A stretch of 34,123 nt of DNA, from assembly GCA_013178015.1 (NCBI GenBank), contig JABLXR010000059.1, positions 1-34,123 on the forward strand, read 5' to 3'. Position numbers and translations under genes: made by a program. The notes under the pieces were generated by a model, which saw nothing but the letters and a program-made list of their open reading frames with translations, did not search any database and had not been told where the DNA came from. Positions 9,691 through 32,512 of the stretch are shown here, piece after piece. The first letter of the stretch is position 1; each line of letters starts with the position of its first letter. The DNA is from Anaerolineae bacterium (lineage in GTDB: Bacteria; Chloroflexota; Anaerolineae; DRVO01).

Positions 9691-10242
9691 ATGGGTGAGC
9701 CGCATCGGCCGCCTCCGGCGCGCCTGGTGGTGGGTATGCTCAGCGCCGATGAGGCGCTAATGGGCACCGTCGCGAAGGAGCTCGCAGAGCTGTTCGGGCC
9801 GATTGACTATCGCAGCCCTCTCATACCCTTCACCCAGACCACCTACTACGACCACGAGCTGGGCACTCCCATCTTCCGCCGCTTCCTATCCTTCTCCGAC
9901 CCGTTCCCTCCAGATGGCCTGGCGACGGCCAAGCTTCTCACCAACTCGGTCGAGCAGCGCTATCGCCTCCGCGGAAACCGGAGGGTTAACCTCGACCCTA
10001 GCTACCTAACTCTGGCCAAACTGGTGCTGGCTACTACCAAGGATCACGCTCATCGCATCTACCTAGGCCAGGGCATCTACGCCGAAGTAACCCTGCACTA
10101 TCGCGGCGGCACCTTTGAGCCCTGGCCCTGGACCTATCCCGACTACCGGACCCCGGAGTACCTCGCTGTCTTCCACGAACTGCGTGCTCGCCTGGCCAGT
10201 TCGTCCCGGAGCCCGGATCTGACCGAGGGGAGAACTCCGTGA
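9691..10242 (+). CDS. DUF4416 family protein
   Basis: This 183-residue protein matches DUF4416, a family of unknown function. Recognisable stretches are LVVGMLSADEALM near the N-terminus, then FGPIDYRSPLIPFTQTTYY and a C-terminal PWPWTYPDYRTPEY. No signal peptide or membrane segment is seen, so it is probably cytoplasmic. The ATG at 9691 is preferred over an in-frame GTG at 9670 because GGGAGGG lies about nine bases before the ATG. It starts 22 bases after radC and overlaps the next gene by four bases (GTGA), so it is part of the radC operon. No function is proposed here. Confidence 0.88.
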   Translation: MGEPHRPPPARLVVGMLSADEALMGTVAKELAELFGPIDYRSPLIPFTQTTYYDHELGTPIFRRFLSFSDPFPPDGLATAKLLTNSVEQRYRLRGNRRVNLDPSYLTLAKLVLATTKDHAHRIYLGQGIYAEVTLHYRGGTFEPWPWTYPDYRTPEYLAVFHELRARLASSSRSPDLTEGRTP

Positions 10243-11336
10243 ACGCGATGACCGTGCCCGAACCCCCCGATTGGACGCGCATCCTAGCTCACTTCGACAT
10301 AGGGGCCGTGCGCTCTCTCCGGCCTGGCGGGGGGACGGCCGCCCCCAAGGTCCTGGTGGAGACAGACAGGGGATGCTTCCTTCTCCGAGCCCGAAGGCCG
10401 CAGTCATCTGCGGACGACGTGGTCGCCTTCGACCATTCCCTCATACGGGGACTGGCAGAGGCGGGCCTACCCACGGTGGCTCCCTTGCCCTGTCGCCCCA
10501 AGCCGGCCTCGGGCTATCAGGCGCGAGCCACATGGCTGCGCCAGGGCGCGGTGGCCTACGAGGCCTTCCCCTTCATCGAGGGGCTGGAGCAGTTCCACCC
10601 CGGGGATCCCGATCAGATTGCCTCAGCCGCCCAGCATCTGGCCCGCCTTCATCGCGTCACAGAGCACCTGCGTCCCGAGGGACATAAGCCCTGGAGACGT
10701 GAGCACGAGATCGGCACCATGGCGGAGACACTCAGGCGAGCCCTGGAGGCAGCCGAGGCGGGGCACGACCGGATACATGAGGCACAAGGGATGCTAGTGG
10801 CCGCCGAAGCCCTCCGAGAGCAGCTGACCGAGGAGCTGGTTGCCTCCCTGCCCCGCGTCATCATCCACGGCGACTACACTCCGGCGAACGTGATGTTTCG
10901 CGGCTCACAGGTCGGCGGCATCTTCGATTTCGACTGGGCCTCGTACCAGCCCCGCCTAGTGGACGTGGGCGAGGCACTGCAGTTCTTCGCCTTCCGGCGG
11001 GAGACCCCCATAGACCCCGACAGCATCTGGTCCCTGGTACAAGAATGGACCCCAGATGACCAGGGGGCGCACACGTTCCTGCGGGCGTACCAGTCCGTGT
11101 GGCCCCTATTGCCTCAGGAGGCACAGGCGTTGCCGCTCTTCATGTGCGAGACCTGGCTCGGGATCAGGATCAGGGCCATGCGCAAAGTGGAGCCTGGAGA
11201 GCGGCTGCGGATTCTCACCGAAGGTGGGCTGGGCCCAACAAGGTATCTGGAACAGGCCGCCGCTCACCTCCGCCGTCTGGTGGAGGTAACGCGGCCCTGC
11301 GCCACGGCAGGGCACACTGCGTCTGCCCGGGGATAG
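10239..11336 (+). CDS. APH/choline-kinase-like phosphotransferase
   Basis: This 365-residue protein has the aminoglycoside-phosphotransferase fold signatures. The catalytic loop is IIHGDYTPANVMF with Asp212 and Asn217, followed by the metal-binding GIFDFDWASYQPRLVD segment (Asp230, Asp232). The N-terminal lobe is divergent, as in homoserine kinase II and spectinomycin-kinase-like proteins. It probably phosphorylates a small hydroxyl-bearing metabolite. Nothing suggests antibiotic resistance specifically: it lies in a chromosomal operon after radC and DUF4416 and overlaps DUF4416 by GTGA. The start is that GTG at 10239, with an ATG three codons later as an alternative. It converges with the putative glycosidase gene, and the 27 bases between them hold no clear hairpin. 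Confidence 0.85.
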   Translation: MNAMTVPEPPDWTRILAHFDIGAVRSLRPGGGTAAPKVLVETDRGCFLLRARRPQSSADDVVAFDHSLIRGLAEAGLPTVAPLPCRPKPASGYQARATWLRQGAVAYEAFPFIEGLEQFHPGDPDQIASAAQHLARLHRVTEHLRPEGHKPWRREHEIGTMAETLRRALEAAEAGHDRIHEAQGMLVAAEALREQLTEELVASLPRVIIHGDYTPANVMFRGSQVGGIFDFDWASYQPRLVDVGEALQFFAFRRETPIDPDSIWSLVQEWTPDDQGAHTFLRAYQSVWPLLPQEAQALPLFMCETWLGIRIRAMRKVEPGERLRILTEGGLGPTRYLEQAAAHLRRLVEVTRPCATAGHTASARG

Positions 11337-11363: not shown

Positions 11364-13001
11364 CTACGCGGCCGCTCCCTTAGGGTCCGCGTAGACTGCT
11401 CGGTCAGCGCCGTATAGAGCATCCCAGTTGCGGGCCCACTCCAGGGCAGCGTACACCTCTTCCATGGCCGTGCTCAGCGTTTCCCGCACTATGGTGACCG
11501 CGGGCAGCACATTGGGGCTCACCCCCTTAAGGGGGCGGTGCTGAGCATGGACCAGCGGTCCTGCGCCCGCCCGATTGAGGGGATCGGCCACGGCGGAATA
11601 GGCCACGCTTCGACCCCACCGGCCAACAGCGAGCTGGAACTCGGCCGAGTCGGCCCGGCAGTGAGGCTCGAAGATGGGAGTGAGGCTGGGCACGTAGTCC
11701 GCATGCCCGTCCCCCAGCAGCACCATGTCCTCGCTTATGTCGCACAGCTCGCGTACCAGAGCCTTCCAGCCAGCATAGAAGTCGCCCCTAGGATCGGGCG
11801 CGTAGATCTGCATGTCCGCTAGGAAGAAGCCATCTACCCCATAGGTGCGCACCAACCGCTCGCAGTTCTCGACCACCCAGCCTCTGTGAGGCTGGCACCA
11901 GGGGTTCATCAGGACCCAGCCGCTCTCAACAAACCCATCGCCATCCCAGTCCCGCGCCGGATAGGTTACTGGCCCGCTGTAGAAGCCCACCGCCTGACAG
12001 GAACGACGAGCGGGGTCCATCGCTATTGACTCCGAAGCGGCTACTGGGTTGACGTGGAGCACCACCTTGGCGCCGAGGGCGTGGGCCGCTCCTACCACGT
12101 CCTGTAAGCTGGCGCTGACCGCCAGCTCTCTCGCCGGCTCCAGCCTGGGGTAGTCCCTCATGAAGGGGCCATCCCAACCCACGAGGTAGATCACTGCCCG
12201 GTTAAGGTTGCCGTGCCGGGAAAGCAGTTTCAGAGCCTTGATCATGCGGGCAAAGTCGAGGTGCACCAGACCGTTGAAGTCCACGCCGCTAAGCTTGATC
12301 ACCAGGTCGCAAGAGCGAGCCCAAGGGGGCACATCCTGACGGCAGTCGAACCGGGTGAGCCCGCGAACGGCCGCCAACTCCGAGCCGTGCTCCTCCAGTT
12401 CCGTCATCAAGGAGCGGGTGGCGCGTAGCCGCCAACGGCTGCCGGAGAACTCGGCTCCGTACCTGGGGGCATAGGCTTCTTCGTAGAGCATCAATTCGGT
12501 GTCGCCCTCCGGCCGCAGGCGAGCCGAGAAAGCCTTGCGGGACACCGGCTCCGGCACACATCGGGCCACGAATCGAGGAACTCCGCTGCTGTCCGGCTGC
12601 AGCCAGACGAAAGGCGTCGCCCAATCCGTCGGGTATTCGCGCGGGCGATGGCGCGCGCCGATGCGAATATGCCCGTCCTCCGTCACGCAACGCAGAGAAC
12701 CGGAGGGCAGTCCCTGCACCACCGTCTTCACGGCGCGCACCCGCTCCGGGTGCGCTACCGTCACCCAGTAGTCCAGCCCCGCAGGGCGGGGCTCCAGTCG
12801 TATCCTGGCGCGGAACGCTCGGGAAACGGCAGTGTCCCAGCCCAGCCCAGTCTCGGTGGCCAGGGTGACCCCGTTTGCATCCCGGGTGGCAACCAGGTTC
12901 AGGAGCCGGTACGAGGTGCGCTCGGTGTGGACCAGCCACTGAAGGGTGAGCGAGCCGAACTCCACCTTACCGTCAGCCAGCCGGCCGAGACTCAACTCCA
13001 A
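11364..13001 (-). CDS. Putative TIM-barrel glycoside hydrolase-like protein (DUF6259-like)
   Basis: This 545-residue protein is not firmly recognised. The N-terminal 220 residues look like a beta-sandwich. The C-terminal half resembles a TIM barrel of the GH31/GH36/GH101 or DUF6259 kind, with VIYLVGWDGPFMRDYP, a strand ending VVLHVNP, and YGVDGFFLADMQIY, whose Asp residues sit where such barrels carry catalytic acids. No signal peptide is evident. The start is set at a TTG at 13001 because a perfect AGGAGG lies six bases upstream. The longer frame from a GTG at 13028 would place that Shine-Dalgarno inside the coding region. A promoter fits 66 bases upstream. Family and substrate need a profile search; enzymatic activity is inference. 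Confidence 0.65.
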   Translation of the reverse strand: MELSLGRLADGKVEFGSLTLQWLVHTERTSYRLLNLVATRDANGVTLATETGLGWDTAVSRAFRARIRLEPRPAGLDYWVTVAHPERVRAVKTVVQGLPSGSLRCVTEDGHIRIGARHRPREYPTDWATPFVWLQPDSSGVPRFVARCVPEPVSRKAFSARLRPEGDTELMLYEEAYAPRYGAEFSGSRWRLRATRSLMTELEEHGSELAAVRGLTRFDCRQDVPPWARSCDLVIKLSGVDFNGLVHLDFARMIKALKLLSRHGNLNRAVIYLVGWDGPFMRDYPRLEPARELAVSASLQDVVGAAHALGAKVVLHVNPVAASESIAMDPARRSCQAVGFYSGPVTYPARDWDGDGFVESGWVLMNPWCQPHRGWVVENCERLVRTYGVDGFFLADMQIYAPDPRGDFYAGWKALVRELCDISEDMVLLGDGHADYVPSLTPIFEPHCRADSAEFQLAVGRWGRSVAYSAVADPLNRAGAGPLVHAQHRPLKGVSPNVLPAVTIVRETLSTAMEEVYAALEWARNWDALYGADRAVYADPKGAAA

Positions 13002-13066
13002 CTGCTGCCTCCTCAACTCAGGGACCACGCAATCACAGTCTCGCGTAGAATGCCAACGACAGTCTT

Positions 13067-15664: not shown

Positions 15665-15694
15665 TTGCCGGCCGTGCAGGCGCTGTGCTAGACT
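15665..15694 (+). promoter_or_regulatory. Promoter for the chaperonin-like and propeller genes
   Basis: TTGCCG (15665-15670) and TAGACT (15689-15694) are 18 bases apart, and a TG one base before the -10 makes it an extended -10 (TGCTAGACT). Transcription would start near 15701, giving a leader of about 60 bases. No CIRCE-type (HrcA) inverted repeat of the kind that often controls groEL operons is visible here. Confidence 0.5.
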
Positions 15695-15759: not shown

Positions 15760-17367
15760 ATGGCTTCACGCCCGGACGTTCTTTTCGGCCGGAAGGCGCT
15801 CGCCGAGTTCCGGCGGGGTTTCACCGAGATGGCTGAGCTAGCAGCAGTCACCTATGGCCCGCGCGCGGGGCTCGTCGTACACCAGGCCGACCTCCGCCGC
15901 GAGCCTGAGTTCATCGGCGATGCCGCCACCATCAGCCGGCGCATCATCGCCCTTCCCGGAGCCGCCCGAGACGCGGGGGCCATGCTGGCCCGCCATTTCA
16001 TCTGGAAGGTGCGGCAGGATGTCGGTGATGGGAGTGCCATGTCGGCGGTGCTGGCAGGAGCCATACTCACCGAGGCCACTCGCCTCATGGCCGCTGGCTA
16101 CAACCCTCAGCTCCTCCGCCGCGGCATCGACCGGGCCGTGAACGCCGTCTGCGCCCGACTCAGCGAGATGGCCACTCCTCTGCAAGGAGAGGACGACTAC
16201 GCCGCCCTGGCCTCAGCCATTACCGGCAACCCGGCGCTAGGCCGGGTCATCGGCGAGGCGGTGGACCTAGTGGGGGCAGATGGGGCCATCACGGTGGAGG
16301 AGTTCACCGCTCCCTACTTGGAGAGGGAGTACGTCGAGGGGGCTCGTCTGCGCTGGGGGCTCCTCTCACCCCACTTTGAGACCGATACCATTCGGCATGA
16401 GGCTATCCTGGAGCAGCCGTTCGTGTATGTGACCAGCAACAAGCTCCAGGGCGCCCGCGATATCATCCCCGTCATCAACATCGTGAAAGAGGCCGGGGGC
16501 AAGTCGCTCCTGGTGGTGGCCGATCAGTTGCAGGCCGACGCCCTGGCCATTCTGTTGGTGAACAATCAGAAGGGCGAACTCAGATGCGCGGCCGTGAAGG
16601 TCGAGGCTCTCGGCGAACAGCGCGTCCCCTCCATGGAGGACGTTGCCGTACTGACTGGGGGCAGGATATTACTCGCCCAGCAGGGCCTTGGGTCGCAGGA
16701 CGTCCGGCTGGAGGACCTGGGTCGGGCCCGGCGGGTGATCGTGCGCCGGAAGGAGACCATCATCGCCGGAGGGGCGGGCTCGTCAGCCGACATCCGCCAG
16801 CGCATCCGCCAGATTCGACAGGAGATGAAGCTCAGCGACCTGAGCGAGGACACCTACAAGAAGCTCCGGGAACGCCTCTCCCACCTGAGCGCGGGCGTCG
16901 CCATCCTCAAGATCGGCGCCTTCGGGGAGAAAGAGAGAAAGGCGCTGAGGGAGCAGGTGGAGAACACGCTCCTGGTCATCTCCGCCTCCGCCGAGGAGGG
17001 AATGGTCCCCGGAGGCGGGGCGGCTCTGCTGGCCTGCACCTCGGCGCTGCGGCGGCTGAGGGCCAACGGCGATGAGAGCCTGGGTGTCGCCATCGTGGAA
17101 AGGGCCCTGGAAGAGCCGATCAGGCGCCTGGCCATGAGTGCGGGCCACCACCCACCTCTGGTCATTAATGCCGCCCGACGTCGGGGCCCTGGATATGGCT
17201 TTGACGTCTTGAGCGAGCGAGTGGTTGACATGCGGCGGGCTGGCATCAGCGACCCGGCCAAGGTGGTCAAAGCGGCACTGACTACAGCCGCCAGCGCCGC
17301 CAACATGACCCTGACTACCGCGGCTCTGGTGCTGCACCGGAAGCCAGAGACCGTGATGGAGCCTTAG
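15760..17367 (+). CDS. Divergent GroEL/Cpn60-like chaperonin paralogue
   Basis: This 535-residue protein aligns by eye with GroEL over its whole length. Matches include TYGPRAGLVV (31-40, GroEL TLGPKGRNVV), GDAATIS (53-59), VGDGSAM (88-94), LLSPHF (201-206) in the apical domain, AILLVNNQKG (263-272), DIRQRIRQIRQEM (344-356), VPGGGAALL (416-424) and SDPAKVVKAAL (497-507). Important departures exist. GroEL DGTTT reads Asp90-Gly-Ser-Ala-Met, and the position of catalytic Asp398 is Asn402 (VENTL against VEDAL). Lys34 is Arg, and the GGM tail is missing. Asp54, Asp90 and Asp498 match GroEL Asp52, Asp87 and Asp495. ATP hydrolysis may therefore be weak or lost. No groES is adjacent. The ATG at 15760 has a strong GGAGGGGGG upstream; a longer upstream frame is non-coding in character. 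The next gene starts 31 bases later. Confidence 0.9.
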   Translation: MASRPDVLFGRKALAEFRRGFTEMAELAAVTYGPRAGLVVHQADLRREPEFIGDAATISRRIIALPGAARDAGAMLARHFIWKVRQDVGDGSAMSAVLAGAILTEATRLMAAGYNPQLLRRGIDRAVNAVCARLSEMATPLQGEDDYAALASAITGNPALGRVIGEAVDLVGADGAITVEEFTAPYLEREYVEGARLRWGLLSPHFETDTIRHEAILEQPFVYVTSNKLQGARDIIPVINIVKEAGGKSLLVVADQLQADALAILLVNNQKGELRCAAVKVEALGEQRVPSMEDVAVLTGGRILLAQQGLGSQDVRLEDLGRARRVIVRRKETIIAGGAGSSADIRQRIRQIRQEMKLSDLSEDTYKKLRERLSHLSAGVAILKIGAFGEKERKALREQVENTLLVISASAEEGMVPGGGAALLACTSALRRLRANGDESLGVAIVERALEEPIRRLAMSAGHHPPLVINAARRRGPGYGFDVLSERVVDMRRAGISDPAKVVKAALTTAASAANMTLTTAALVLHRKPETVMEP

Positions 17368-17398
17368 CCACGACCCTATCTGTCCAGGAGGAAGTGCC

Positions 17399-19285
17399 AT
17401 GAGTGTGAGGGAGTACACCAGTCGGCGACGCTGGCGGCTCGCGGGGCCGGTCCTGGAGGGGGGCACCGTCTACGCCCTGGTGCTCTCGCCCAACAAGGAC
17501 CAGCACAACCCCTTGATTGCGGGTACGCCTGTGGGCGCGTTCCGGTCACTGAGCCGTGGTGCCCAGTGGTCCTGGGCTAACCGCGGGCTTACCGGCCTAC
17601 AGGTATCCGCTCTCGCCGCGTCGGCCAATGGCGTGCTCTTCCTAGGCTCTCTGGACGGCACTCTGGCCCGTTCCGTCGACGGAGGTTATTCGTGGGACTG
17701 TATGCCCCGCTTGCACGACAGCGGCAGCATCACCTCTCTGGCAGTCTCCCCCGATTACCTGCGCGATGGCACCGTGCTCATTGGTACCGAATCGGGGGGT
17801 GTGTTCCGCACTACCGACAGCGGCAAGACTGCCCGCCCGGTTAACTTCGGGCTTCTGGACCTGAGTGTGCTGGCCCTGGCCTGCGCCCCCGGCTGGCCGG
17901 AGCGCCCGATAGCCTTCGCTGGCAGCCTGGAGGGCGTCTTCCGCTCCACTAACGGCGGTCGCGCCTGGCGCCCCTCCGGAGACGACCTGGACGGGGTGAC
18001 AGTCCAAGCCCTTGCTGTAAGCCCCGCCTTCACTCGGGATGGGACCGTCTTTGCCGGCACCGAGGAGGATGGCTTGTATCGCTCCACCGACGGTGGAGAC
18101 TCATGGGTCCGGGTTGGAGCCGATGTCTTGGGAGACACGGTGAACGCGCTGTGGATCTCGCCCAACTACCGTTCTAGCCCAGTCGTCCTTGCCGGTTCGG
18201 CCGGCGGCGGCGTGTATCGCTCAGAAGACGGGGGCAACTCCTGGGTCCGGACTCTTGAGACCGGTGGTGCCGCGCTGGCTCTGGCGGGGGACGGCGAGAC
18301 AGTGTTCGCCGGCTTCCACGGGGCCGGCGCCTATCGCTCCAGCGATGCGGGGCTCACGTGGGAGGAATGCCGGGAGGGCCTCTTCGCCAACGCTTTCACC
18401 CACCTGAGCGTCACCAAGGGTGGAACCCTCTTTGTCGCCGGGCCGGACACTGGTGTGTACACCTCAACTGATGGTACTCGATGGACGGCGATCCCCTCGC
18501 TACCGAATCTTGCCGGTCTAGGCTCCCTAGCCGTGTGGCCGCGCTACGAGGAGCGCCCCCTCCTGCTCGCTGCCGACGTCGAGAGCGGCGCATACGTGAG
18601 CGAGGACGGAGGTCGCTCCTGGGACCAGACTCTGGAGGAGCAGGTCTCCGCCCTCGCTCTCGAGGAGGACGGCGAGGTGGCCGTGGCGTGGGCCGGCACT
18701 ACCGACGGTAGGCTGGCGCTCAGCTTGGATGGAGGGCACCAGTGGCAGGAAAGCGCCCCCTTCTCCGGACAGGCCGTCCTTCGGATCGCCCCTTCGGCGG
18801 CCTTCGGTCAGGATCACGTGGTGCTGGCAGCCACTCGCGACACCGGATCAGCGGGGTCACCTCTGGTTCTGTGGCGCTCCGATGATGGAGGCCGGAGCTG
18901 GCGCCATCTCCTGGAGCAGGACGTCGAGCTGCTGCACGTGAGCTTAATCGTCAGGCCAGGAGAGGCCGGGCGAGCCACGGCAGTCTTTGACCGGTACTGC
19001 CTGATCCAAGAGGACGCCGACCAGTGGAAGCGGCTTACCCTGGGCATGGGCGATCCGCCCCTGCTGTCGGTCGCTTCCCGCATGGGAACGGGAGAGGAGT
19101 ATCTCATCGTCGGATCCACTCAGGGCGTCTTCGCCACCACCGACGGGCAGAACTGGACGCCAATGATGCGTGGCATGGGATACGCTCCCGTGCTGGCCTT
19201 GACGCCCACTGTCGGCGGGCGGGAGAGCCCGATATGGGCCCTGGCGCTCGGCGGCATTGTCTGGAAGTGGGATAGAACAGAGTAG
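17399..19285 (+). CDS. Asp-box (BNR/sortilin-like) beta-propeller protein
   Basis: This 628-residue protein is built of repeats with Asp-box motifs (S/T-x-D-x-G-x-x-W). Clear copies are SVDGGYSW, STNGGRAW, STDGGDSW, SEDGGNSW, SSDAGLTW, SEDGGRSW, SLDGGHQW and SDDGGRSW, plus degenerate ones (SLSRGAQW, TTDSGKTA, STDGTRW, TTDGQNW). That gives about 11-12 boxes, suggesting a ten-bladed VPS10/sortilin-like or a double propeller. No sialidase catalytic Arg triad was identified. There is no signal peptide or membrane segment, so it is expected in the cytoplasm, unusual for this class. The ATG at 17399 has AGGAGG eight bases upstream. It is probably co-transcribed with the chaperonin-like gene 31 bases before it, and a 12-bp hairpin follows its stop. 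Molecular function is unknown. Confidence 0.88.
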   Translation: MSVREYTSRRRWRLAGPVLEGGTVYALVLSPNKDQHNPLIAGTPVGAFRSLSRGAQWSWANRGLTGLQVSALAASANGVLFLGSLDGTLARSVDGGYSWDCMPRLHDSGSITSLAVSPDYLRDGTVLIGTESGGVFRTTDSGKTARPVNFGLLDLSVLALACAPGWPERPIAFAGSLEGVFRSTNGGRAWRPSGDDLDGVTVQALAVSPAFTRDGTVFAGTEEDGLYRSTDGGDSWVRVGADVLGDTVNALWISPNYRSSPVVLAGSAGGGVYRSEDGGNSWVRTLETGGAALALAGDGETVFAGFHGAGAYRSSDAGLTWEECREGLFANAFTHLSVTKGGTLFVAGPDTGVYTSTDGTRWTAIPSLPNLAGLGSLAVWPRYEERPLLLAADVESGAYVSEDGGRSWDQTLEEQVSALALEEDGEVAVAWAGTTDGRLALSLDGGHQWQESAPFSGQAVLRIAPSAAFGQDHVVLAATRDTGSAGSPLVLWRSDDGGRSWRHLLEQDVELLHVSLIVRPGEAGRATAVFDRYCLIQEDADQWKRLTLGMGDPPLLSVASRMGTGEEYLIVGSTQGVFATTDGQNWTPMMRGMGYAPVLALTPTVGGRESPIWALALGGIVWKWDRTE

Positions 19286-19312
19286 AGCGCCCTTCGCGTG
19301 GCTCACTGCAGT

Positions 19313-19340
19313 CGAGGCCCCGACAGAAGTCGGGGCCTCG
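19313..19340 (+). terminator. 12-bp hairpin terminator after the chaperonin-propeller pair
   Basis: The arms CGAGGCCCCGAC (19313-19324) and GTCGGGGCCTCG (19329-19340) pair perfectly around an AGAA loop. The sequence after it (TGATTCT) is only weakly T-rich. The hairpin lies 27 bases past the propeller stop and 20 bases before the end of the convergent dehydrogenase gene, so it may end transcripts from both sides. Confidence 0.7.
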
Positions 19341-19360: not shown

Positions 19361-20362
19361 CTAAGGCATACAGCCGAAGAACGGCAGATCGAGCATAGTG
19401 AGGTACCCAGGAGGGCAGCGCAGGGAGGGCAGCACGGCGTTGGTGACCACGGCGGCAGTGGCTGTGTCCCCAGGGAATCCACCGACCACCTTCACCTGAG
19501 CCTCGTGATCCCCCTCGATGGTCACCTCGTCCACCGGTTCGGGAGCCCCAAGGAACATCTCCAGGTGCAGTATCATCTGCGCTCCGCCGCTCAGCTGGCA
19601 GCGCAGCTCCTGGCGCAGGCCAACCACCCGACCCGGCGGCACCTGGAAGTACTCCGTGACCACCTCTCGGTCAGCCAGCACCGGCTCTATGCTCCCGCTC
19701 TGTTCCAGCACCCGCCGCCCCAGGCCCTTGGCCAGCAGCAGGGCGGATGCCTCCAGCCCTACGTGGCCGAGCCGCCGTGCGGCTACCTCCTTGCGGAACT
19801 CCTCCGCTGTCATGCCTGCGCCGATCTTGCGCTGTAGAGGCTCGCGTCGGGTGGACGCGTCCACCACCCGCCGCACCAGGATCCGGTCCACTCGAGCCTG
19901 AGCAGCACTTACCACCAGCGGCCACACATCCATGGCGAAACCGGGGTTGATTCCTGTGGCAAGGACGCGCACGCCCGCCTCCTTGCACGCCCGGTCGAGC
20001 TGCTCCGTCAGCAACCGCGCCTGAACCGTGGTCGGGTAGCTGGCATCCTCACAGGTGGAGACGACGTTAAGCCCTGCCTGGACCAGTTCCTGGAACTGGG
20101 GGTAGACTCGGTCCAGGTAGGAGCCGGTAGCGTGCAACACCACCTCGGGCTGGCAAGCATCCAGCAGTCTAGCGAGCGAAGGCGCTACGCTGATGCCCCG
20201 AGGCCCTCCGGCGACCACGTCACTCAGCGGGCGGCCGGCGATGTCGGGTGCCACGTCTACTGCCCCCACTAGGTCCAGCGACTTCTTTGCTGCTGCAGCT
20301 GCGGCTATCGCTCTGCCGATGGGGCCCAGCCCGTACGCCGCTACTCTCACCGGTGCTTCCAT
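19361..20362 (-). CDS. 2,4-diaminopentanoate dehydrogenase-like NAD(P) oxidoreductase
   Basis: This 333-residue protein has an N-terminal Rossmann fold (VAAYGLGPIGRAIA, Gly11, Gly13, Gly16) of the dihydrodipicolinate-reductase type. It then shows the stretches LHATGSYLDRVYPQ, NVVSTCEDASYP and ATGINPGFAMDVWP, which resemble 2,4-diaminopentanoate dehydrogenase, the Ord enzyme of clostridial ornithine fermentation. No other ornithine-fermentation gene is near, so the substrate may differ, for example another amino acid-derived amine or oxo compound. The ATG at 20362 has a perfect GGAGGT four bases upstream; the longer frame from 20383 lacks this. A promoter fits about 40 bases upstream. It converges with the propeller gene and diverges from the kinase gene. 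Confidence 0.8.
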   Translation of the reverse strand: MEAPVRVAAYGLGPIGRAIAAAAAAKKSLDLVGAVDVAPDIAGRPLSDVVAGGPRGISVAPSLARLLDACQPEVVLHATGSYLDRVYPQFQELVQAGLNVVSTCEDASYPTTVQARLLTEQLDRACKEAGVRVLATGINPGFAMDVWPLVVSAAQARVDRILVRRVVDASTRREPLQRKIGAGMTAEEFRKEVAARRLGHVGLEASALLLAKGLGRRVLEQSGSIEPVLADREVVTEYFQVPPGRVVGLRQELRCQLSGGAQMILHLEMFLGAPEPVDEVTIEGDHEAQVKVVGGFPGDTATAAVVTNAVLPSLRCPPGYLTMLDLPFFGCMP

Positions 20363-20400
20363 GTTACCTCCACGGGGGCGCAAGTAGTGCTCGACCAGGC

Positions 20401-29683: not shown

Positions 29684-32512
29684 ATGCCGCGTCAGTACGT
29701 CGCCCTGGATCTGGAGACTACCGGGCTGGATCCGCAGCGGGATGCCATCATCGAGGTGGGGGCGGTCCGGTTCGGCGATGGGGGGCCCGTGCGCCGCTTC
29801 TCTTCGCTGGTCAACCCTGGCCGATCCCTTCCGGCCAAGATCCAGCACCTCACGGGCATCGCTCCTGACGACCTGGCGGCCGCACCTCCGGTGTGGGAGG
29901 TGATGCGGCAGCTGGCGGACTTCGTGGGCAACGACGCGGTGATCGGCCACAGCATCGGCTTCGACGCCTCGTTCCTCTCCCGCTACAACATCCTCCAACG
30001 TAACCGCATCATAGACACATTCGAGCTCTCCACCATCCTCCTGCCGCACATGGCCCGTCACAGCCTCCAGCACTTGGTGGGCGAACTCGACCTGGCCTCG
30101 CACTCGGCTCACCGGGCCCTGGACGATGCCGAGGCCGCCATGCGACTGTTTCAGGCGTTACGCGAAGCCGCTCTCTCGCTGCCTATAGCCTTGTTGGAGC
30201 AGGTAGTCTCCCTGGGCCGGCGCAGCAATTGGCAACAGGCCGACTTCTTCGAGGACATACTGAGGGAACAGCTCCGCCGCCCCGTTCGCACTAGCATCGC
30301 CCAGCAGCTGGCGGGCAAGGGTGGAATCGGCCCGGGCGCCCTCCTGCTGGGCGCCGAAGCCCCTCAGAGGCATCCGCAGATCGAGCCACGCCGCCCTCCG
30401 GAGCCGCTGGACACCCGGGAATTGGCGGCGGCGCTGGAGCCTGGAGGCCGCGTGGCTGCAGCCATGAGCGCCTATGAGCATCGCCCGCAGCAGGTAGAGA
30501 TGCTCCGGGCGGTGTGTCAGGCCTTCAATGACGGGCGGCATCTGGCCATAGAGGCCGCCACTGGGGTGGGTAAGTCGCTGGCCTACCTCTTGCCGGCGAT
30601 GGTCTTCGCCCGCACCAACCGGGACCGAGTGCTTATCTCTACCCACACCATCAATCTTCAGGAGCAGCTATACACCAAGGACATCCCCCAACTGGCTCGG
30701 GCTCTCGGGATCGAGCCCAGAGTGGCGCTGCTCAAGGGCCGCAACAACTATCTCTGCCCGGCTCGCCTTCAGTCTCTGGTAGACCGGCAGTCACTCTTGG
30801 CAGAGCAGGCGCTTGCCCTGGCCAAGATCCTGGTCTGGATTCCCAACACCGCCACTGGAGACCGGGCCGAGCTGTTCCTCAACACCGCTTCCGAGCGGGG
30901 AGTCTGGCAGCAGGTCTGCTCCGACTTGGCGTGGTGCAACGGCGAGACATGTCGCTACCGACAGCAGGGCCGGTGCTTCTTCCAGCAGGCTCGCCAGACG
31001 GCGCAGCAGGCCGAAGTGGTCATCGTCAACCACTCCCTCCTCGCTATGGACGCCTGCCTCGAAGCCGGGAGCCTGCCAGAATACGACCATCTCATCGTAG
31101 ATGAGGCCCATCATTTCCAGGCGGCGTGCACCAATGCCCTCAGGCTGGAACTCACTTTCTCTCAGTTCCACGACGTGCTAGGTGACGTCCTCTCCGAGGA
31201 GAGGGGCAATGACAGTGGCGCCCTGGCCGTGATCCGCCATGCCTTACAGCGGATGCGACAGCGAGCCGGACGAGCTCTGGAGGACTGCGACCGGTTGAGC
31301 GAGGCGCTGGAAGCCCTGACGTCTCACATCGACGCGGCAGCATCTTCCCTCGAGCTGTGCGCCGAACGGCTGCTGGGCAGCACCGGCCGCTCCTACACTC
31401 AGCAGCGGCGGATCACTGCCCGGGAGCGAGCAACGGCGGAGTGGAGCAGGCTGGTAGAATGCTGGACGGCGGCCGCCAAGGCAGCCTCCGTCGTGGCCGG
31501 CCTGTTGGAGGAAATCAGGCGGCAGGCCGTGGGATTGGGGCTCGAGGAAGACCTGGCTGAGCCCTTGCAGGTCGCGGCGGCCAACGCCCGCCAGCTACGC
31601 GAGCTGGTCGCCACTTTCAGTGAGGTGATCGCCACGCCTGCGGAGGCTTACGTCTACTGGCTATCGGCCCGCGACGTCGGCGAGGCGGTGGCCCTCAATC
31701 GGGCACCCATCAGCGTGGCGGAGAGCCTAGGAGAACTGCTGTTCAGCCAGAAGCGCACCGTTGTCCTCACCTCTGCCACCCTTACTACAGCGGGCTCGTT
31801 CGACTACTTCTTGCAGCAAGTAGGCCTGGACTCGGCCCGAACCGTCACCGTGGGCTCGCCTTTTGACTTCCGCTCTTCCACCCTGGTGTGCATCGCCCGC
31901 GACGTTCCCGAGCCGCGTCACCCAGGACACCAGAAGGCGATCGAGGAGGCCATACTGCGGCTTGCCCGCGCCACCGGCGGAAGGCTTATGGCCCTGTTCA
32001 CGTCCTACAGCCAGCTAAAGCAGACGACGCGCTCCCTCAGTCGTCCTCTGGAGGAGGAGAACATACTGCTCTACTCTCAGTCGGAGGGCGGCAGCAGAAA
32101 CCAGCTACTGGAGGGCTTCAAGTCTGCCGATAGGGCGGTCCTGCTGGGAACGCGGTCGTTCTGGGAGGGCGTCGATGTCCCTGGGGACGCTCTTCAGTGC
32201 CTAGTCATGGCCAAGCTGCCGTTCATGGTCCCCGACGATCCGATCGTCGCCGCACGCAGCGAGCAGTACGCAGACCCGTTCAACCAGTACCTCCTGCCGG
32301 AGGCCATCCTCACTTTCAGACAGGGGTTCGGTCGTCTCATACGCACTCAGACCGACCGGGGCGCCTTTGTGGTGCTCGACAGCCGCGTTCGGACCAAGGC
32401 GTACGGCAGCAGCTTCCTGCGATCCCTGCCCGACTGCACCTTCATCGAGGGCACCATGGACTCCATTCCGGAGAAGGTCGTGTTGTGGCTGAGTCGAAGC
32501 TCTCACGCGTAA
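29684..32512 (+). CDS. dinG: DnaQ-like exonuclease fused to DinG-type (XPD-family) helicase
   Basis: This 942-residue protein is a fusion. Residues 1-165 form a DEDDh 3'-5' exonuclease (Asp9 and Glu11 in ALDLETTGL, Asp94 in GFDASF, His143 and Asp148 in HRALDDAE). After a linker comes a superfamily 2 helicase with Walker A ATGVGKS (292-298), DEAH box at 473-476, and C-terminal motifs LTSATLT, LGTRSFWEGVDVPG and RQGFGRLIR. Four cysteines (Cys358, Cys418, Cys423, Cys431) are spaced much like the iron-sulfur ligands of E. coli DinG, with an extra Cys412. The protein may unwind and degrade DNA or R-loop structures. Exonuclease-DinG fusions are known in Firmicutes, where the iron-sulfur cysteines are usually missing. 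The ATG at 29684 has AGGAGGG 11-12 bases upstream. Confidence 0.95.
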   Translation: MPRQYVALDLETTGLDPQRDAIIEVGAVRFGDGGPVRRFSSLVNPGRSLPAKIQHLTGIAPDDLAAAPPVWEVMRQLADFVGNDAVIGHSIGFDASFLSRYNILQRNRIIDTFELSTILLPHMARHSLQHLVGELDLASHSAHRALDDAEAAMRLFQALREAALSLPIALLEQVVSLGRRSNWQQADFFEDILREQLRRPVRTSIAQQLAGKGGIGPGALLLGAEAPQRHPQIEPRRPPEPLDTRELAAALEPGGRVAAAMSAYEHRPQQVEMLRAVCQAFNDGRHLAIEAATGVGKSLAYLLPAMVFARTNRDRVLISTHTINLQEQLYTKDIPQLARALGIEPRVALLKGRNNYLCPARLQSLVDRQSLLAEQALALAKILVWIPNTATGDRAELFLNTASERGVWQQVCSDLAWCNGETCRYRQQGRCFFQQARQTAQQAEVVIVNHSLLAMDACLEAGSLPEYDHLIVDEAHHFQAACTNALRLELTFSQFHDVLGDVLSEERGNDSGALAVIRHALQRMRQRAGRALEDCDRLSEALEALTSHIDAAASSLELCAERLLGSTGRSYTQQRRITARERATAEWSRLVECWTAAAKAASVVAGLLEEIRRQAVGLGLEEDLAEPLQVAAANARQLRELVATFSEVIATPAEAYVYWLSARDVGEAVALNRAPISVAESLGELLFSQKRTVVLTSATLTTAGSFDYFLQQVGLDSARTVTVGSPFDFRSSTLVCIARDVPEPRHPGHQKAIEEAILRLARATGGRLMALFTSYSQLKQTTRSLSRPLEEENILLYSQSEGGSRNQLLEGFKSADRAVLLGTRSFWEGVDVPGDALQCLVMAKLPFMVPDDPIVAARSEQYADPFNQYLLPEAILTFRQGFGRLIRTQTDRGAFVVLDSRVRTKAYGSSFLRSLPDCTFIEGTMDSIPEKVVLWLSRSSHA

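Follow-up and report, generated by a model that had tools for sequence, protein, structure and literature searches.

Bacterial chaperonins are usually thought of as GroEL working with GroES, and the locus described here would make two questions directly testable: can a chaperonin work with a partner other than GroES, and did chaperonin-propeller partnerships, known from CCT, arise independently in bacteria? The window, by which we mean the whole stretch of 34,123 nucleotides analysed here (contig JABLXR010000059.1 of an Anaerolineae bacterium), contains a gene for a divergent chaperonin (Cpn60) followed on the same strand, 31 nucleotides from its stop codon to the next ATG, by a gene for an Asp-box beta-propeller. 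The initial annotation had singled out these neighbours as a possible folding pair or a ring with its adaptor, and profile searches confirmed the identity of both. The same arrangement was found at 52 loci, which span 20 family-level groups and several classes, always in the same order and on the same strand, and we propose, tentatively and with somewhat less than even confidence, that the pair forms a dedicated chaperonin system of Chloroflexota with two components, a slow ring and the propeller that it carries as a permanent adaptor or cap. This widespread paralogue, which retains the ATP site, usually lacks the main hydrolysis residue, comes without a dedicated GroES and is accompanied by a propeller, would represent a chaperonin system not described before, and pairing across at least 20 families points to an undescribed two-part cellular machine. 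No bacterial system of this kind was known to the initial annotation, in agreement with our searches of the open-licence literature for a chaperonin-propeller pair, Chloroflexi and GroEL paralogues, which returned no description; neither propellers nor Chloroflexi feature in a review of atypical type I chaperonins.

Recurrence and shared history of the gene pair

Among 60 relatives, eight other genomes carry a propeller gene directly after their closest-matching Cpn60 (40–79% identity). A class-wide search of 396 genomes was then made with a profile built from nine propeller-linked chaperonins, and 50 divergent Cpn60 loci, chosen by chaperonin score alone, were fetched from the class genomes. 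A same-strand Asp-box propeller lies directly downstream in 34 of these 50 (28 long and 6 short forms), a fraction biased upward because the search profile was built from propeller-linked members; 14 loci have no adjacent propeller and two end at a contig edge. Three further divergent Cpn60s (in G042, G016 and G004) all have an adjacent propeller, and in four seemingly unpaired genomes of family f38 another divergent Cpn60 carries its own. Other classes of the phylum contributed eight more pairs, and the arrangement is repeated at three loci of a named Caldilineaceae record, at one of which (L296, contig 45) the pair is split over several frames, either as a pseudogene or through sequencing errors. 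The initial annotation had held that adjacency in a single genome, or a failure of the two genes to co-occur, would refute a partnership; what was found is a conserved adjacency, with mirrored lineages, in all the family-level groups counted above. We infer that all 52 pairs belong to Chloroflexota. Of 47 genomes reached through their canonical GroEL loci, 41 belong to other phyla, and no member of the clade appeared among the loci fetched from outside Chloroflexota, too small a sample to fix how far the family extends; these loci have the canonical GAQ...K form wherever this motif was readable and canonical-type tails throughout.

The two genes are tightly spaced, with a median gap of 12.5 nucleotides and a gap of at most 60 nucleotides in 44 of the 52 pairs, and they overlap in 18, mostly by 4 nucleotides. 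No third conserved gene was found beside the pair, the highest-ranking neighbour clusters consisting of reading frames antisense to the two genes or of widespread gene families. One genome, G363, contains four separate pairs (L215, L217, L218 and L219) besides a single canonical GroEL and a single GroES, a sign that the system may have diversified inside one cell. Two of these paralogues hold matching places in the chaperonin and propeller trees, L219 grouping with L212–L214 and L218 having L162 as its nearest relative in both; the match is less clear for L215 and L217.

Chance adjacency, or shared ancestry without function, would be helped by the fact that pairs from related species inflate the counts. 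Against it stand the spread over 20 family groups and several classes, with chaperonin identities down to about 35%, the mirrored paralogues, and the presence in the genome of only about four Asp-box homologue loci among several thousand genes, which puts a chance downstream neighbour of this kind at the order of 0.1%. We dropped chance adjacency on the strength of these observations and of the recurrence at 52 loci, and consider this explanation almost certainly wrong. Across the 52 pairs, the patristic distances of chaperonins and propellers are strongly correlated (r = 0.878, compared with at most 0.19 in 2000 permutations), and species history is a contributor to this correlation. Propeller divergence follows the apical domain of the chaperonin (partial r 0.52) more closely than the equatorial domain (0.26; interval of the difference 0.07–0.41), and this co-variation suggests that the propeller may have an apical interface with the ring.

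Some arrangements depart from the adjacent pair. At L216 (G363) and L297/L300 (the named Caldilineaceae record), a chaperonin that retains the catalytic residue Asp398 (D398) lies about 8 kb from a short propeller with the family signatures on the opposite strand, which is a loosened pair. In the f39 genomes G040, G273 and G117, the gene after a divergent Cpn60 with Lys398 and no propeller (L041, L163 and L168) is on the same strand and resembles a transaldolase, judging by eye from its opening residues MKFFLDSAKxDEV; it may be another partner or a chance neighbour.

The divergent chaperonins and their propellers

The window chaperonin matches Pfam PF00118 (Cpn60_TCP1) along its whole length (136.4 bits, cut-off 34.3, residues 25–524) and falls short of the GroEL equivalog TIGR02348 (417 bits, cut-off 582). 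It is not a group II chaperonin of the CCT/thermosome type (58 bits at best, with cut-offs of at least 400), and the exception models for chlamydial GroEL2 and GroEL3 also score below their cut-off (99 and 164 bits, cut-off 600). Its identity to the canonical GroEL of its own genome, encoded on another contig, is about 39%; that GroEL is 70–74% identical to those of Anaerolineales, Thermoflexales, Caldilineaceae and other Chloroflexi and at most 63% identical to the next-best GroELs of other phyla. When 50 divergent and 23 canonical chaperonins are placed in one tree, the two groups are split with a Shimodaira-Hasegawa-like approximate likelihood ratio test (SH-aLRT) value of 100, and propeller-linked members occur in both major sub-branches of the divergent clade.

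Residues were counted in 81 divergent and 23 canonical sequences, using E. coli numbering. The clade is set apart by T48E (77 of the 81), K58R (77), E59R (80), Q72M (76), K75R (81), S79W (75) and L187R (74), and is marked by R59, M72, R75, W79 and a C-terminal proline, which 72 members have, while none has a GGM tail; the window protein likewise ends in ...HRKPETVMEP without such a tail. D398, present in all 23 canonical sequences, is lost in 65 of the 81, with R, E, Q, K, H, N, A or Y in its place. The rest of the nucleotide pocket is maintained as in GroEL, with D52 in 75, D87 in 78 and D495 in all 81 members (all three also in the window protein) and T30 and G32 likewise retained. The engineered GroEL mutant D398A binds ATP normally, has 3% of the ATPase activity and retains encapsulation and folding (PMC3326522), so slow ATP hydrolysis rather than a dead protein is predicted for the clade. 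The likeness extends to the position changed and the predicted behaviour; D398A is a laboratory mutant, whereas the change in the clade is natural, varied and set within a partner system.

These chaperonins thus share the Cpn60 fold family, the nucleotide residues and most apical hydrophobics with GroEL, and differ from it in usually lacking D398, in the tail and in the absence of an adjacent groES; the window protein differs further in its low identity, its sub-threshold equivalog score and the propeller gene in its operon. Unlike in canonical GroEL, the apical domains are the least conserved part of the protein within the clade, and inter-ring positions are also variable. In ten genomes examined, each with one or two Cpn10 genes, most of these neighbour a canonical GroEL, whole or fragmentary, and none lies beside a divergent Cpn60, so the propeller holds the cochaperonin's place in the operon. 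In the window genome the only Cpn10 gene adjoins the canonical GroEL on contig 8, and G363 has a single GroES for its six Cpn60s, one canonical and five divergent.

The propellers have Asp-boxes spaced 39–52 residues apart, some of them degenerate, and come in two forms: a short form of about 280–340 amino acids with about 7 blades by motif spacing, and a long form of 590–740 amino acids (63–73 kDa) with about 14. The short form matches the first half of the long one and has signatures in common with it, FGLxD... and, about 35 residues later, GGRxW, which are found in most of the 52 linked propellers and in none of six control Asp-box loci from genomes with canonical Cpn60 only. The linked propellers form a distinct family. 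By hydropathy none of the 52 has a signal peptide, and the cytoplasmic character that the initial annotation had assigned to the window propeller was borne out by the lack of any signal-peptide-like hydrophobic stretch. The nearest profile matches among solved structures are GH74 proteins, with Ycf48 and sortilin weaker; GH74 proteins are tandem 7-bladed Asp-box propellers (PMC2716378), an architecture that motif spacing suggests for the long propellers. Ycf48/HCF136 is likewise an Asp-box propeller and acts as an assembly factor; it differs in working on photosystem II, and the window propeller is a remote match to it (model PRK13684, 31.8 against a cut-off of 326). We know of no chaperonin partner for Ycf48/HCF136 or for the GH74 xyloglucanases.

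Adaptor, client or co-regulated neighbour

In the system that we tentatively propose, the pair would have been inherited and duplicated as a unit alongside ordinary GroEL/GroES. The chaperonin would form a GroEL-like ring that binds ATP and hydrolyses it slowly, giving the ring a long-lived ATP-bound state, and the propeller, with 7 or 7+7 blades, would bind the fast-evolving apical domains of the ring and stay there as a permanent adaptor or cap, in the position taken by GroES in the canonical system; ring and propeller would together hold or assemble a third set of clients. A physical complex of the two proteins is probable, and the adaptor or cap step is the least certain of the proposal: such a role for the propeller is possible, at rather under an even chance, and a role as client is a lesser possibility. 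A cap or adaptor is favoured over an encapsulated client by the lack of a dedicated GroES, by the loss of D398 in most members and by the size of the long propellers. A more specific version, with a single-chain propeller in place of the GroES heptamer as the lid or adaptor of a bacterial chaperonin, we regard as quite unlikely; a pseudo-symmetric propeller of seven (or 7+7) blades would then lie on the seven-fold axis of a ring with hardly any ATP hydrolysis and lock it, forming a long-lived holding or assembly chamber. The match between seven blades and a seven-fold ring is suggestive only, because seven is a common blade number.

Several observations weigh against the adaptor or cap proposal. 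Contact between the two proteins is a prediction from sequence comparison, and AlphaFold models built from single sequences were unusable (predicted local distance difference test, pLDDT, 35 and 38). The clade largely retains the apical hydrophobic residues with which GroEL binds GroES and clients, so that the ordinary GroES of the genome may bind the divergent chaperonins, and the closer tracking of the apical domain may reflect matched evolutionary rates. Clade members without an adjacent propeller occur in families f39, f96 and f80 and in parts of f4 and f38, indicating that the chaperonin does not always need a propeller nearby. D398 is retained in 16 of the 81 members, four of which have an adjacent propeller (L215, L256, L257 and L260), and pairing and D398 loss are therefore separate traits; an earlier suggestion that the loss is tied to the propeller was dropped once wider sampling had found these members.

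The most serious alternative, which we consider possible and somewhat less probable than the proposed system, is a dedicated folding pair, with the propeller as the obligate client of a paralogous chaperonin that is specialised in folding or holding it. The precedent to which the initial annotation had appealed is real: CCT folds 7-bladed WD40 propellers and is bound or needed by Gbeta, MLST8 and others; Gbeta sits at the CCT apical domains and needs PhLP1 for its release, ATP hydrolysis by itself being insufficient, a behaviour that would suit a slow ring (PMC8544692). The two cases are alike in linking a chaperonin to 7-bladed propellers (PMC8544692), and they differ in that CCT/TRiC is a hetero-octameric group II chaperonin with WD40 propellers and no operon, whereas the Chloroflexota pair joins a group I chaperonin to an Asp-box propeller. 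A chaperone and its client would also account for the gene pairing, the co-duplication and the apical co-variation, and GroEL D398A still folds (PMC3326522). Other Asp-box propellers of these genomes, however, have no chaperonin neighbour, and same-clade chaperonins exist without an adjacent propeller. The GroES-capped GroEL chamber has a limit of about 60 kDa, and long propellers, at or above it, speak against ordinary encapsulation under GroES. That the two proteins serve one pathway without contact, as stress or envelope genes that are transcribed together and paired because they share regulation, seems unlikely: operon partners do not always bind one another, and G210 has a short propeller of the signature type (L208) on a different contig from its divergent Cpn60 (L176), with related short propellers also apart from the divergent Cpn60 in G257, G329 and G702, yet persistence through repeated duplication, near-zero gaps and the absence of a third gene are typical of interacting pairs.

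We consider it very unlikely that the propeller is an enzyme, a GH74-like or F510_1955-type glycoside hydrolase whose production the chaperonin merely aids. Its best solved relatives are the GH74 tandem 7-bladed propellers (PMC2716378), and the window propeller passes the cut-off of NF045728 (F510_1955 glycosylhydrolase; 202 against 175), but this score is a sum over 8 repeat matches of a short, 246-position profile. GH74 xyloglucanases are polysaccharide-degrading enzymes, while the linked propellers have no signal peptides; the short form has 7 blades without a second propeller, and the positions of the GH74 catalytic Asp pair lie outside the alignment with the window propeller.

Features of the locus and its surroundings

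The initial annotation had described the two genes as an isolated transcription unit, with a promoter before them and a hairpin after them (Table 1). Isolation is supported by a convergent gene downstream (19361–20383) and by a same-strand YfhO-like gene that ends about 250 nucleotides before the chaperonin. The hairpin is an exact inverted repeat as described; it has no T-run and accordingly no match to an intrinsic terminator. The promoter is less well supported: a scan found no sigma-70-like site. With a weak promoter and a hairpin without a T tract, the unit is plausible only. An Rfam search of the window gave no match, nor did the PADLOC anti-phage defence models match the chaperonin or the propeller.

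Table 1. Coordinates of the chaperonin-propeller locus and its elements within the window
Feature	Position	Strand	Basis or remark
Divergent group I chaperonin (Cpn60), 535 amino acids from ATG	15760..17367	+	Pfam PF00118, TIGR02348, tree
C-terminal Glu-Pro of the chaperonin	17359..17364	+	72/81 divergent members end in Pro, not in a GGM-like tail
Codon of Asn402, equivalent of E. coli GroEL catalytic Asp398 (VED to VEN)	16963..16965	+	Alignment with E. coli GroEL and relatives
Codon of Trp82 (E. coli position 79), clade-defining	16003..16005	+	W in 75/81 divergent, 0/23 canonical
Asp-box beta-propeller, cytosolic-type, 628 amino acids; motif spacing points to about 14 blades (7+7, like GH74 proteins)	17399..19285	+	
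AGGAGG ribosome-binding site of the propeller gene, within the 31-nucleotide gap	17386..17391	+	Sequence
Propeller signature 1, NFGLLDLSVLALACAP, residues 149–164	17843..17890	+	Common to long and short linked propellers; not in six control Asp-box loci
Propeller signature 2, STNGGRAWR, residues 183–191	17945..17971	+	N185, R188 and W190 invariant in 34 long propellers
Perfect 12-bp hairpin with 4-nucleotide loop, 3' of the propeller gene	19313..19340 (arms 19313–19324 and 19329–19340)	.	Exact inverted repeat
Candidate promoter, TTGCCG, 18-nucleotide spacer, TAGACT	15665..15694	+	8/12 consensus matches; no support from scan

Elsewhere in the window, a 554-amino-acid open reading frame on the minus strand (11364–13028), which has no Pfam match, adjoins the gene for the YfhO-like membrane protein, and a phosphotransferase-family (APH) gene lies on the plus strand at 10239–11336. 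A further plus-strand gene (29684–32512) encodes a 942-amino-acid fusion of an exonuclease (RNase_T) and a DinG-type helicase.

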